From positions 1-32,792 of IMG/VR virus record IMGVR_UViG_3300027712_000086: a stretch of DNA of 32,792 nt; one strand, 5' to 3'. The stretch comes from a virus. The translations under genes were made by a program, and so were the position numbers. The notes beneath the pieces were generated by a model. That model did not search any database. It was given only the letters and a program-made list of their open reading frames with translations, and was not told the DNA's origin. Below, one piece after another: positions 3,143-27,410 of this stretch (the stretch's first letter is position 1; every line of letters begins with the position of its first letter).

Positions 3143-4791
3143 TATTTCACCTCCACCCAATTAGATTGTTGATTGGGATCACCACCTTTAAATCTGAATT
3201 TTTTATCGCCATTGACTACAACATCGTTAATTTTTGGTGGGGCTTTTGCAATTGCTGGCGTTGGTGCTGCCGCGCTTGTTGATTGTGTGCCGCCAAGTAC
3301 GCCTTGCGTTGCTGATAGGCTCAATCCTTTTATGTTGGCGGGAATAGCTATACCAAGTTCGCCCAACCTAGCAACCACTTCAGCTTTTCTCAATTCAAAG
3401 CCTGCCGCCTCTTCGGGAGCCACGCCGCCAGCAGTTTTAACAAAATAACGATCAACCAAATCCCTGATTTTGGGGTCGCTTCGTATCGTACCCATTGGCA
3501 CGCCAGCTTGTTGCAATTGACCCAAAAAGCCATCCAATGGCTTAACATAGCCTGTTGCAAGAATTGGATCGTCTTTTTTAACTTGCCGCACAACAGTTTC
3601 ACCTTGTGCATTTACTGTTGTAATGCTTGCATATTCCGGCCCTTTTGTCGCAAAACCTTCTACAAATTTTGGATCAGATTCATCCATTAATACCATTTTT
3701 GTTGATCCATCTGCGTTTGTAACTTCTACGCGAACTTTCTTAGATGGCGCTGCGCTTACTACAGCTTCACCAGCCATATCAATCAATGGCGTTACGCGAC
3801 CTTCATTGTCCATTTTCATCAAAGATTCGCTACCATCCTTATTTTTTACGGTGACTTGTTTATAACCTTGATTTTTTTGTTCCCATGCCAATCTTTCAGC
3901 GGCAACATTTCGCACTTCATTTGCAATCGCGGCATCGTATGTTGTAAGGCTTGGATCATTTGAATTTTTTGCCGCTATTGCAGCACGTTCTGCTTGCAAT
4001 TTACCCAAATTACTAAGCGCCGTTGATTCAGTTTTTGCGGCTGCTGTAGCCAACAAATTGCCGGTTGGCCCACGCAATTCTTGACCTGGGCTAAGAGCAA
4101 TTGGACGCTGTGGAGTTGGAGCCGCTGTTGCCACCGGCGTGAGTTGTCCATTTGTTCCTAATTGGCGATATAAAACGTCTCCAGTGCTAAGTTTTACATC
4201 TTTTGGCTCAAATTGTGCCAAGTATTTTGCCATTGCCAATTGCTTAACTTCGGGAATGTCAATTCCTTGTAGCGTCTCAGGACTGATGTAGCCAGCAGGC
4301 ACGGCGGGACGTGCAGGAATTGCGGCTTGGCCTGGCACGGCTTCTTTGCCTGCCACAGCGGGAGAAACTTCGTATTGCCCAACTTCTCGCGGCATTCCAT
4401 AACCGCCAAAACTTTTTTCAATTTGAGGAGCCATTACCGCTGGTTTGGCTGGAATGGCTTCTTGGCCTGGCACAGCTTCTTGTCCGGCAAACGCTTCTTG
4501 TGCCGGTGCAGAAATTGCCCGTGCCAAATCGCCAAATTGCTTGTCGTAATTTGTGCGGTATTCGTTTTGCAGCTTGGCGTAATCTTGCCGCGCTTTTTTC
4601 TCTTGATATGCGCCAAGTCCCGATTCCAAAACTTTTGCCAAACCAGCAAGCGGGCTGATTGCTACGCCTGGCGTTGTTGGCATTTGCAAAACTTGTGATC
4701 CTGATTCTTGCAATGCTTGCGCCATGCGTTGTCGCCGCGCAATTTCTTCCGCTTGTTGCGAGTAAGGATCAATTAAACTGACTGTTGCCAT
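3142..4791 (-). CDS. Putative ejection-type structural protein with duplicated Pro/Ala linker, 549 aa
   Basis: The protein starts MATVSLIDPYSQQAEEIARRQ, a charged helix often seen at the start of podovirus virion proteins of unknown fold. Residues 50-100 are helical. Two copies of an 18-residue linker follow, AG(Q/K)EAVPGQ(E/A)AIPA(K/R)PAV, at about 102-119 and 147-164. The remainder mixes beta-rich stretches (for example 315-420, with several VTNADGS-like hairpins) and a helical C-terminal region. The ribosome site TAAGGA precedes the ATG. Gene order after the ejection-type Gln-rich protein suggests a virion component delivered with or guiding DNA. No enzyme motif is seen. Confidence 0.6.
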   Translation of the reverse strand: MATVSLIDPYSQQAEEIARRQRMAQALQESGSQVLQMPTTPGVAISPLAGLAKVLESGLGAYQEKKARQDYAKLQNEYRTNYDKQFGDLARAISAPAQEAFAGQEAVPGQEAIPAKPAVMAPQIEKSFGGYGMPREVGQYEVSPAVAGKEAVPGQAAIPARPAVPAGYISPETLQGIDIPEVKQLAMAKYLAQFEPKDVKLSTGDVLYRQLGTNGQLTPVATAAPTPQRPIALSPGQELRGPTGNLLATAAAKTESTALSNLGKLQAERAAIAAKNSNDPSLTTYDAAIANEVRNVAAERLAWEQKNQGYKQVTVKNKDGSESLMKMDNEGRVTPLIDMAGEAVVSAAPSKKVRVEVTNADGSTKMVLMDESDPKFVEGFATKGPEYASITTVNAQGETVVRQVKKDDPILATGYVKPLDGFLGQLQQAGVPMGTIRSDPKIRDLVDRYFVKTAGGVAPEEAAGFELRKAEVVARLGELGIAIPANIKGLSLSATQGVLGGTQSTSAAAPTPAIAKAPPKINDVVVNGDKKFRFKGGDPNQQSNWVEVK

Positions 4792-20341: not shown

Positions 20342-22656
20342 TGCACAGCCTCCACGCCAACCACCATTCCATCAGGGCCGCGAATGACCCGCTTAGGTGC
20401 GCTCAGTTTTTGCATGGCAGCACCAATGTTTTGCATGGATTCACCGTGCAGATTTGCCATGTTGTCGTGCAAGGCGGTGATCTTATCCATTGCCTGGACA
20501 ATTGTGCCGCCCAGTTCGTTGGTTATTTGTGCAGCCGCTGCTTCAACGACCGGTAGGTCGATTCCAGGGTTGCTACCAATGCGAGCCACCATGATTTTGG
20601 TCGCTGCATCCAGTTCGGCTTTCCATCGTTCATATTCTTCCTTGCCAGCCATTTCACGGGCTTTTATCTGCAATTCGTTGTTTTGCTTGGCAGTCTCAAA
20701 ATCGGCTTTCATTTGCGCCAATTGCATATCGGCTTGCACTTTGGCTTGATGCATCTGAATTTCAAGCTGTGCCTTGCCTTGCTCAATTTGCGCCTGCGCT
20801 TGCAATTTCATTTGCTCAGTCTGTGCTTGGGCTTGCATTTTCATCTGTTCTGCTTGTTGATCAGCCTGCAATTGCATCATCTCAGGAGACGGGCCAGGCT
20901 GCTGTTGTTTAGCCATTGCCGCTTTTTCTTCTAAAGATTTCATGGCGCGTTCGACTGCGCTTTCCAGCCCGCGACCGGCGCGGAACCGGCGCACCAAAAA
21001 CAGCAGCATCTCGGATGCCATTGGCAAGGTTTCGGGCGCTTGGCTAATCATGGGAATTGCTTCACGCAAGAACAGTCCAATGGCTTGGATGGCCTCTTGT
21101 GCGCCTTGTTTCTCTGCTTGTTCATCAATCTGCGCCAAGCTGTCGGCCTCGACCGCAATGTGGAAGTCGCGGATTGTGCTGTTGGACAGCATCTGCACGG
21201 CGGCTTGCAGCAATTGCGGATTTTGCCCATCGGGTGTGTCCATCACGCCGGACATCTGCACAATCAACTCAGGCGGGTAAAACTTGCAGATGACTTGCGC
21301 TTTTAGCTTGAATATGTCGGACGCAAACCGCGCCACATCGCCTTGGCTGCTACGCATCCGCAAGCTGCCAAAGTTCGCCTTTAGCTGCTGTGCGCCAAGG
21401 GTTTCTTGGGCTTTGGACGCGCCGCGCAGGATGTCCGAAATGCCCATGATTTCGTAGATTGCCTGCTTGACTTGCTCCCGTGCGGCGTACAGTTCCCGCA
21501 AGGTGACAATGATGGTCGAAGTGTCCATCATGTCAATAGCGCCCTTCAAGCCGCCTTTTTCCGACATTGCCGCCCATGAGGTCACGGGGAACAGCTTGTT
21601 GTCCACGCCTTCGGTAAACAAACGGCCCAATTCCTTAAATTCAGCATTAAACACGCCGACCGCTTTACAGGCTTTGGTCAGCAAGTAGATGCGCTGGGTC
21701 AGGTTGTCCAGTTCCTGCGCTTGGTCTTCATACTCAGCGTAATCCGGCACGGGGATCATTGTCCCTGTGGTGGTGGTCGCCATCAGCGGGCGCGGGCATG
21801 GGAAGAATTCTTCTAGTTCCAGCGGGTCATCACGCTCATCTAGCGCCTGTGGATAACCTTTGGCAATCCAGCAAACCTTGCCGGTGCGCTTGTTCCAAAT
21901 CTCAAACACCTTGGCTTTTTTGTCATAGGTATTCTTGGCGGTCATTGGATTTTTGGCATCCATGTCCGTGTTGCTGCTATCTAGGCCCACGTTCTTGAAC
22001 ACATCGCCGAAACGCTCCATGCCTTCGTCTTTGGTCATGTATACGGCGCGGGAAACCCACCACACTTCGTCCCATGTGCGGGCTGGGCTATGCAAGAAAT
22101 CTGTCCAATAGACGTAATCGATGGGGCTATGCGCCGCATCAATGCGCTCGGTTGGCTCTTCTTGGGTGTTGTAAATTTGCGCTTCGCCTGGCTCTTCTAC
22201 TTCTACAGCGCCTTCGCTTACTTCGGGCTGTTCGTTAACGATTACCGGCTCATAGCGAATCCACGCCGTACCGCGACCAGGCAGCAATCGGTCTTCCACC
22301 GCGCCGCGCATGGCTTGGTCAAAGTCGCCAAATTGGGTGGTTTCGTATTCCATGACCCGTTCCAGCATCGTGGATGCCAGCCGACCTACAGGGTCTTGAT
22401 CCATGTAGCGGCGGGAAACTTCGGGTTTGGCCTGTCTGCCGTACAGCGCAGGGAATAGCACTTGGATGTTCGACCACAGGATGTTGTAGCGAACACGGGG
22501 CATTTCTACCGCATCGCGCTCATCCCGATAGCGTTTGATAATCTTGTGACCGCGTTTTTCCCACTTGTCAAAGACTTTTTGCGCCGCTTCGATTTGGTCG
22601 TGCCAGTACGGGCCAGGATTTTCACCCTCATATGCGCCGGTTTCTTGGTAGGCCAT
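20338..22656 (-). CDS. Portal protein, 772 aa
   Basis: The N-terminal clip/stem region starts [20 protein letters not shown] and [20 protein letters not shown], and continues [19 protein letters not shown]. The core (about 190-560) includes [39 protein letters not shown], and [10 protein letters not shown]-like [20 protein letters not shown], typical of podovirus portals of 700-800 residues. Residues 590-700 are an unusually Gln/Ala-rich long coiled coil ([20 protein letters not shown]), probably the barrel reaching into the head as in P22. Twelve copies should form the vertex through which DNA enters and leaves. It overlaps the fiber by ATGA. Confidence 0.9.
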
Positions 22657-26097: not shown

Positions 26098-26359
26098 CTA
26101 TGCCCCTAATCATGTCTAAAGCCGCCTGTGGGCTGTCAACCCTGCATAACGTACCACCGGCCCAATTTTGGAAAAAGTCGGCTTGTAACCCCGTTAAACG
26201 CTTTTTAGAGGTGGTTTTGACTTCCATCAAGAAAGTGTGCCCTTTGTATCCAACCAAAATGTCAACCGGCAAGCTAATGATCCACACATAAGCGCCCTCT
26301 GCCCGCAGCGCGGCAACAATAGCCTGTTGGTTTGCGTCAACCCTTGCGGCGTGTCTCAT
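26084..26359 (-). CDS. VRR-NUC-type nuclease, 91 aa
   Basis: A small PD-(D/E)XK nuclease. Asp33 in LPVDILVGYKG, then Glu46 and Lys48 in HTFLMEVKTTSKKRL, with Gln59 in LTGLQADFFQNWAGG, form the expected active-site order. This type is found in phages as a Holliday-junction or branched-DNA nuclease. The gene is coupled to the P-like gene by ATGA and overlaps ninB. It likely resolves recombination or replication branches. Confidence 0.8.
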   Translation of the reverse strand: MRHAARVDANQQAIVAALRAEGAYVWIISLPVDILVGYKGHTFLMEVKTTSKKRLTGLQADFFQNWAGGTLCRVDSPQAALDMIRGIDEKP

Positions 26360-26724
26360 GCTTTTTCTTTCACCTTTGCAATCAGTTCAGCAATCCTGGC
26401 CTTGTTCTTTGCCCGCTGTTCGGCGGTCAATTCGTTCCCCAACTGCAAAAAAGGCGGCTCAACATAGCTACGGCGCAGCAAATTTATCCATTGCGGAAGT
26501 GTAGGTGGGTCTTCCGGCAAGTTCTCCAATGCCCGTTTAATCGTAGCCGCGCTGAAACCCGCCATCTTTTCACTCCAATGATTCATGGCGTTGACCACAC
26601 CAGCATCTGACCCGTCCGGTAACGTCTGTCCGGTCTTCCATTGATTCATAAACCGAGTGCCATAGTTGCCTTGCAGGGCCGCAAACAAACGCTGAATCCA
26701 GCCGTCAGGTAATTTTGAGGACAT
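26356..26724 (-). CDS. Phage P-type replication protein (helicase loader-like), 122 aa
   Basis: I choose the ATG at 26724 because AAAGGA precedes it at 7 bases; the longer frame would lie inside the DUF1376 gene. The sequence WIQRLFAALQGNYGTRFMNQ, then HWSEKMAGFSAATIKRALEN and EDPPTLPQWINLLRRS follows the pattern of phage replication protein P, where a compact helical domain ending P-P-T-L-P-x-x-x-x-L binds the host helicase. It overlaps the O-like initiator by 20 bases, as expected for an O-P pair. Confidence 0.7.
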   Translation of the reverse strand: MSSKLPDGWIQRLFAALQGNYGTRFMNQWKTGQTLPDGSDAGVVNAMNHWSEKMAGFSAATIKRALENLPEDPPTLPQWINLLRRSYVEPPFLQLGNELTAEQRAKNKARIAELIAKVKEKA

Positions 26725-27397
26725 TGAAGTTCCTTTCGTCACCAAAGATGGCCCTGGCTGCGCCCATGTTCTTGTCTTGATAGGCATGAGACTGCATCCA
26801 TTCGGCCTTAAAGCCCGTCCAGCCCCTTTCACAGCACGTTTCAAGGACTGTCTGTAGGCTGACCCCTGCTTTGTCCGCTTCGCGCTGTATGCCGTCTAAG
26901 GCGGTTTGCGTGACCGCAGCCTTTTTTGCTTTTCTCAATTTCAACCAATCCTGCCAAACTATCACCGTCACGCCGTCAGGCGGGGCGACTGTATTTGTAT
27001 TCTTTGGTTTATGGTTATTGGTTATTGGTTTATGGTTATTGGTTGCTATTGGGGTAGCATTAGGGGGGGCAATGGGGGGGGCATCGGGGGGGGATAGCCA
27101 CCGTTTAGCCGCCCCACGTTTTCCAGCGTCAACCATCTCGCGGTATTTGCCAATTTCCTCATCAGCACGCGCACTTACAAAGCCTTTGTCGGTACTGACA
27201 AAAAACTCATTCAGCACACTCAAAACTTCTTGTTCATGGTCGCGCATCCCAATTTGACGAGCAATGTCCCGCTGTTTAATGGGCGCTTCGTGTAAGTAAT
27301 AGTGGTCTAAAAGCCGCCGATAGGCAATGTCTTCCAGCACCGTCAAATGGTGGGTGTGGCTTTTATAGTCCCCAATGTGGAACTGGTAGTAATGCAT
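26705..27397 (-). CDS. DUF1376 (YdaU-type) replication initiator, O-like, 230 aa
   Basis: I choose the second ATG, at 27397, because GGAG lies 6 bases before it. Residues 1-85 (MHYYQFHIGDYKSHTHHL, VLEDIAYRRLLDHYYLHEAP, IARQIGMRDHEQEVLSVLNE) are DUF1376, a winged-helix domain in phage O-like initiators. Residues 100-140 are a Pro/Asn/Thr linker (PPDAPPIAPPNATPI, NNHKPITNNHKP) coded by direct repeats and C-tracts. The C-terminal part (VIVWQDWLKLRKAKKAAVTQ, then CCERGWTGFKAEWMQSHAY) is the common second domain that ends these proteins. It should melt the phage origin and recruit the P-like loader. Confidence 0.85.
   Translation of the reverse strand: MHYYQFHIGDYKSHTHHLTVLEDIAYRRLLDHYYLHEAPIKQRDIARQIGMRDHEQEVLSVLNEFFVSTDKGFVSARADEEIGKYREMVDAGKRGAAKRWLSPPDAPPIAPPNATPIATNNHKPITNNHKPKNTNTVAPPDGVTVIVWQDWLKLRKAKKAAVTQTALDGIQREADKAGVSLQTVLETCCERGWTGFKAEWMQSHAYQDKNMGAARAIFGDERNFNVLKIT
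27006..27093 (+). other. Repeat array and G-tract cluster inside the O-like gene: possible origin
   Basis: Two tandem copies of a 21-bp unit beginning GGTTTATGG (27006-27026 and, slightly altered, 27027-27050) are made of GGTTATT and GGTTTAT words. Immediately after them come four G-tracts on the plus strand: 4 G at 27051-27054, 7 at 27063-27069, 8 at 27074-27081 and 8 at 27086-27093. Loops are 4-8 bases, which meets the usual G-quadruplex pattern. In lambda the origin repeats lie within the O gene. No clear AT-rich melting region is seen. Confidence 0.5.
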
Positions 27398-27410
27398 GAG
27401 CATCTCCGCA

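Follow-up and report, generated by a model that had tools for sequence, protein, structure and literature searches.

The initiator-like gene and its neighbours

The window analysed here is a 32.8-kb virus record whose genes include those for ERF, NinB, terminase, portal and capsid; the portal gene contains two 33-bp tandem repeats (20,779–20,844, 81% alike) in its Q/A-rich C-terminal part. On the minus strand, positions 26,705–27,403 encode an initiator-like protein of 232 amino acids with an N-terminal DUF1376 domain, a linker and an O-like C-terminal domain. The DUF1376 domain (residues 4–84; 27,152–27,394) is predicted to consist of four helices followed by two strands and a further helix, and is the proposed reader of the repeats described below. 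The linker (residues 104–146; 26,966–27,094) contains these repeats, and the O-like C-domain (about residues 137–210; 26,774–26,995) is the proposed partner of a helicase loader.

Membership of DUF1376 is clear from the match to PF07120 (E = 4.8e-22; 78.6 bits against a curated cut-off of 30.1). The gene also matches phrog_6451 (primosomal protein) and, at its C-terminus, phrog_678 (replication initiation, O-like). In the AlphaFold2 model the N-domain is ordered, helical and wing-like in layout, the linker is disordered and of low confidence, and the C-domain is small and helical. A fold search with the DUF1376 model gave no significant PDB match, the weak list including the winged-helix regulators MntR, RovA and OxyR, all with E > 1; a DUF1376 sequence search of the PDB was empty, and NCBIfam returned nothing. 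Since no PDB entry matches the model significantly, DUF1376 is treated here as a putative DNA-binding domain.

The next gene (26,356–26,724, minus strand, 122 aa) is P-like and may encode a helicase loader. It has a weak match to phrog_1524 and weak homology to an ORF at the place annotated as replication protein P in MW202520. In several cultured phages, a helicase loader, an IstB/DnaC-like gene or DnaB lies directly 3' of the DUF1376 gene. Judged by gene order and domain content, the gene at 26,705–27,403 and its neighbours form an initiator module.

A heptamer array under DNA-level constraint

Within the linker, positions 27,004–27,045 (minus strand) hold a 42-bp array of six tandem heptamers of the form xAACCAy, which read on the coding strand, from 27,045 down to 27,004, CAACCAA, TAACCAT, AAACCAA, TAACCAA, TAACCAT and AAACCAA. 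The initial annotation had described two tandem 21-bp repeats beside four G-tracts, and both lie exactly as described: 27,004–27,044 comprises two tandem copies of TTGGTTTATGGTTATTGGTTA (TRF: period 21, 2.0 copies, 100%), and extension to 27,045 introduces one mismatch in the second copy. Its statement that repeats and C-tracts are coding is likewise borne out by the translation (...SPPDAPPIAPPNATPIATNNHKPITNNHKPK...), in which the C-tracts are proline codons. The tandem array thus stands, but its true unit is 7 bp, and the 21-bp iteron is discarded as the unit in favour of a coding super-period. This period appears because each set of three heptamers spans seven codons, and in one of the three the initial T, which would create an in-frame TAA, has to be avoided. 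The first base of the unit is T in 80/107 cases when it falls at the third codon position, and in 0/86 where TAA would result.

The array is not a chance product. A run of five WTGGTTW units is present at one place in the window and in none of 100 dinucleotide shuffles. The exact 21-mer is present in at least 120 viral contigs, and in all but one of them an initiator-type ORF reads through the array in frame. A search with a looser pattern of four heptamers led to the same result, and all of the 92 proteins tested belong to PF07120. Both of these sets were selected by the repeat. In a search with the N-domain only, for which genes were chosen without regard to the array, every complete gene carries three to seven tandem units, and their location in the gene is constant across distant relatives. 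In the single exception among the 21-mer contigs (L076), the array (4377–4411) is on the opposite strand and falls within an open frame of 677 codons that is not of DUF1376 type.

Some DUF1376 genes have other repeats or no clear ones. At the corresponding place in the linkers of five DUF1376-like genes (L410, L423, L422, L476 and L447) other short repeats are seen, with units GATACA, AACCAG, CACCAGA, CACCAA and CACCTT. A scan of cellular genomes for the pattern returned mostly unrelated microsatellites, with 2/120 in DUF1376 genes; homogeneous AACCAWW microsatellites occur in cyanobacteria, Bacteroidota and others (loci L286–L405), mostly without a long open frame across them. From these sequence comparisons, AACCAWW alone is not diagnostic, while the in-frame motif within an initiator linker is.

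Codon usage in the array is strongly restricted. In a phylogeny-controlled test across 61 related genes, array asparagine is AAC in 89/89 cases, proline CCA in 89/89, histidine CAT in 62/62 and threonine ACC in 59/59; in the same genes, 0/56 conserved N-domain columns use a single codon, and mean use of the major codon is 59%. When the motif was defined by protein sequence in 53 non-redundant genes, cultured phages included, its proline was CCA in 64/64 cases versus 224/660 elsewhere (p = 2e-28). When synonymous codons were resampled, 11 of 9000 draws reached the repeat chain seen in the genes. Furthermore, amino-acid changes in the array (N/I/K/T, H/Q, K/E, I/L/K) track those positions of the unit at which the base is free. 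By these codon patterns, selection on the array acts at the DNA level.

Repeat class and N-terminal domain type

Within the C-domain family of the window's protein, DUF1376 N-domains are accompanied by AACCA heptamers or variants of them, and other N-domains by GA-rich hexamers with no AACCA. A sister DUF1376 clade (loci L504–L583) has ACACA/ACCCA heptamers; an 11-bp TGCGAACGCAT-like repeat is often found in the upstream linker of this clade, immediately before the heptamers. A group with a non-DUF1376 N-domain (L584–L663, bearing a PPWIKLHRDLL motif) is joined to the same C-domains and has linker arrays of GAGACA hexamers, again with strongly restricted codon use: GAG accounts for 268/269 cases in the linker versus 157/537 elsewhere. 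These hexamers are probably a separate iteron class.

Among 235 non-redundant genes, the repeat classes are hardly mixed between N-domain groups; the N-domain classes were sampled around a few queries and their frequencies are not population estimates. On trees built from the same 82 DUF1376 genes, repeat class requires 2 changes for the N-domain and 22 for the C-domain, against about 23 for either tree when labels are shuffled. C-domains are freely swapped between N-domains among the relatives. On this phylogenetic evidence, repeat type follows the N-domain and not the C-domain, as would be expected if the N-domain reads the repeats as iterons, in the manner of the lambda O gene. Part of the covariation could stem from physical linkage, should recombination breakpoints usually fall 3' of the array. 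The residues separating the two DUF1376 repeat classes are concentrated at 52–65 (helix 54–67) and at 87–88, just outside the domain; as the second class is a single clade, these positions are a lead rather than proof.

Origin candidacy and alternative readings

In lambda and Stx phages, the repeats of ori lie in the middle of gene O, and changes in repeat number lengthen the protein (PMC7466680). The window shares with this system tandem direct repeats in the linker between the N- and C-domains of the initiator, constraint on those repeats as DNA, and an initiator followed by a helicase loader or helicase gene, here through the weakly homologous P-like gene and in cultured relatives through a loader or DnaB. 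It differs in that the units are 7 bp and abut head to tail, whereas lambda has four to six longer iterons, and in that the N-domain is DUF1376 rather than that of lambda O. Furthermore, a conserved AT-rich tract or unwinding element beside the array was sought in the relatives and none was found; in the window, AT content is 70% over the 50 bp of the array and 30% over the next 50 bp. Because a conserved AT-rich flank is absent, we class the array as a variant of the lambda-type arrangement of an origin within an initiator gene, rather than placing it in the lambda ori family itself.

Lambdoid replication types offer a further comparison. There too, distinct modules (lambda versus P22 gene 18/12) each have their own initiator and origin, and a hybrid of lambda and P22 that carries rep-P22 shows no sensitivity to ori-lambda plasmids (PMC3349717). 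In the present system the classes are set by the N-domain and the C-domain family is common across them. PHROG primosomal proteins (phrog_6451, 9327 and 4118) have the same N-domain family and likewise precede helicase or loader genes; they are annotated only as of unknown function or as primosomal proteins. Open-access papers searched by sequence, family name and topic contained no description of a repeat or origin role for the DUF1376 system.

Taken together, anatomy, constraint, covariation and the lambda precedent lead us to infer that the 42-bp array is probably the iteron block of a replication origin lying within the initiator's own gene. The suggestion that origin iterons are housed in the initiator gene therefore holds as regards iteron-like behaviour, given the O-like and P-like genes, the DNA-level selection and the tracking of the N-domain; its quadruplex component fares otherwise, as set out below. 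GC skew was set aside as origin evidence: the cumulative minimum near 27.5 kb coincides with a switch between divergent genes, third-position skew does not flip there, and gene orientation explains the minimum, so the suggested skew check around 27 kb, which showed no change linked to replication, lends no support.

The four G-tracts (plus strand, 27,051–27,093; the proline-codon C-tracts of the coding strand) lie at 27,051–27,054 (4 bases), 27,063–27,069 (7), 27,074–27,081 (8) and 27,086–27,093 (8), with loops of 8, 4 and 4. The idea that they form a quadruplex, which would influence melting or the direction of the fork and leave the repeats a secondary part, draws on the unusual 7+8+8 cluster, the only other G/C run of at least six bases in the window being one C6, and on proline codon choice: in the proline stretch of the window's clade, CCC is used in 139/276 cases versus 112/531, and CCG in 0/276. 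This over-use of CCC makes it likely that slippage or some effect at the DNA level operates in the clade. As a class, however, four-tract motifs are not beyond chance, for although this is the only one in the window (loops up to 12), a first-order Markov model expects 1.8 in a window of the same make-up. Nor are four tracts kept among relatives. Array-bearing relatives have between zero and seven: close relatives have three to five, most genes of the same N-type at least two, and other N-types few or none, with at most one C3 tract upstream of the array in SAERR-type genes. Within the 90 nt upstream of the array, 71 of 170 non-redundant array loci lack any C3 tract, and only 25 contain at least four. 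Comparison of the linker in relatives thus finds the array retained and the four-tract motif missing from most array-bearing genes, for which reason the quadruplex idea is not supported; it is largely refuted and, as the working element, highly improbable. By this distribution, with tracts only in near relatives, the sequence that they add beside the array is a side feature specific to the lineage. The C-tracts upstream of the array, in the window (27,051–27,093) and in relatives (L217–L285), look like loose 11–14-bp units of C(4–8) followed by NATWGC.

Three other readings bear on the array itself. It might be an operator at which the initiator represses or times its own operon, with replication starting elsewhere. 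Iteron initiators often autoregulate, and DNA-level constraint and matching to the N-domain would fit an operator equally well; however, the array lies mid-gene, about 360 bp 3' of the start codon and not at a promoter, and the lambda element at the same place is an origin, which makes this reading unlikely. We give still less weight to a recombination joint, a short common sequence for swapping N- and C-domains. C-domains are indeed exchanged freely among N-domains, and the junctions fall at the array, but a joint has no need for five or six tandem copies or for a unit specific to the N-domain class, and the single-codon constraint persists across genes of the same N-domain type. It is very improbable that the array has no function as DNA and is simply a disordered stretch of protein linker, or a heptanucleotide microsatellite that is neutral. 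The linker is disordered in the model, and cyanobacteria and Bacteroidota have AACCAWW microsatellites that lie outside initiator genes; these cellular arrays share the unit but are mostly homogeneous, with no comparable gene and no initiator link, whereas the phage units are non-homogeneous, avoid only the stop-forming base and keep a constant place in the gene across distant relatives. The codon tests refute neutrality unless single-codon use has a cause other than DNA.

If the array is indeed origin iterons, the DUF1376 N-domain, winged-helix-like in the model, would bind to adjacent 7-bp units, every three of which correspond to two DNA turns. The assembled array may then open the DNA in or beside its own AT-rich stretch, and the C-domain would recruit the P-like protein and the host DnaB.

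More broadly, and with somewhat less assurance, we favour a view of these initiators as modular cassettes, in which each type of N-terminal DNA-binding domain would travel with its own microsatellite-like linker iteron of 6–7 bp (AACCA, ACACA/ACCCA, GAGACA and others), and the C-terminal domains that bind the helicase loader would be exchanged behind it. Were this so, the linker repeat would give origin position and specificity class for very many uncultivated phages. Should the origin reading itself hold, a sequence signature alone would locate the replication origin in many uncultivated phages. DUF1376 would gain a function as the origin-binding domain of phage initiators, and the N-domain/repeat pairs would provide a natural series for work on protein–DNA specificity. 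The initiator linker would, in addition, answer to two codes simultaneously, that of the open reading frame and that of a 7-bp repeat in the DNA.

One record calls for a separate remark. The filing of Limnohabitans phage DC33 (PQ492659.1; L419) under Inoviridae looks doubtful; the record is 39 kb long and carries an O-like initiator and a P-like gene.
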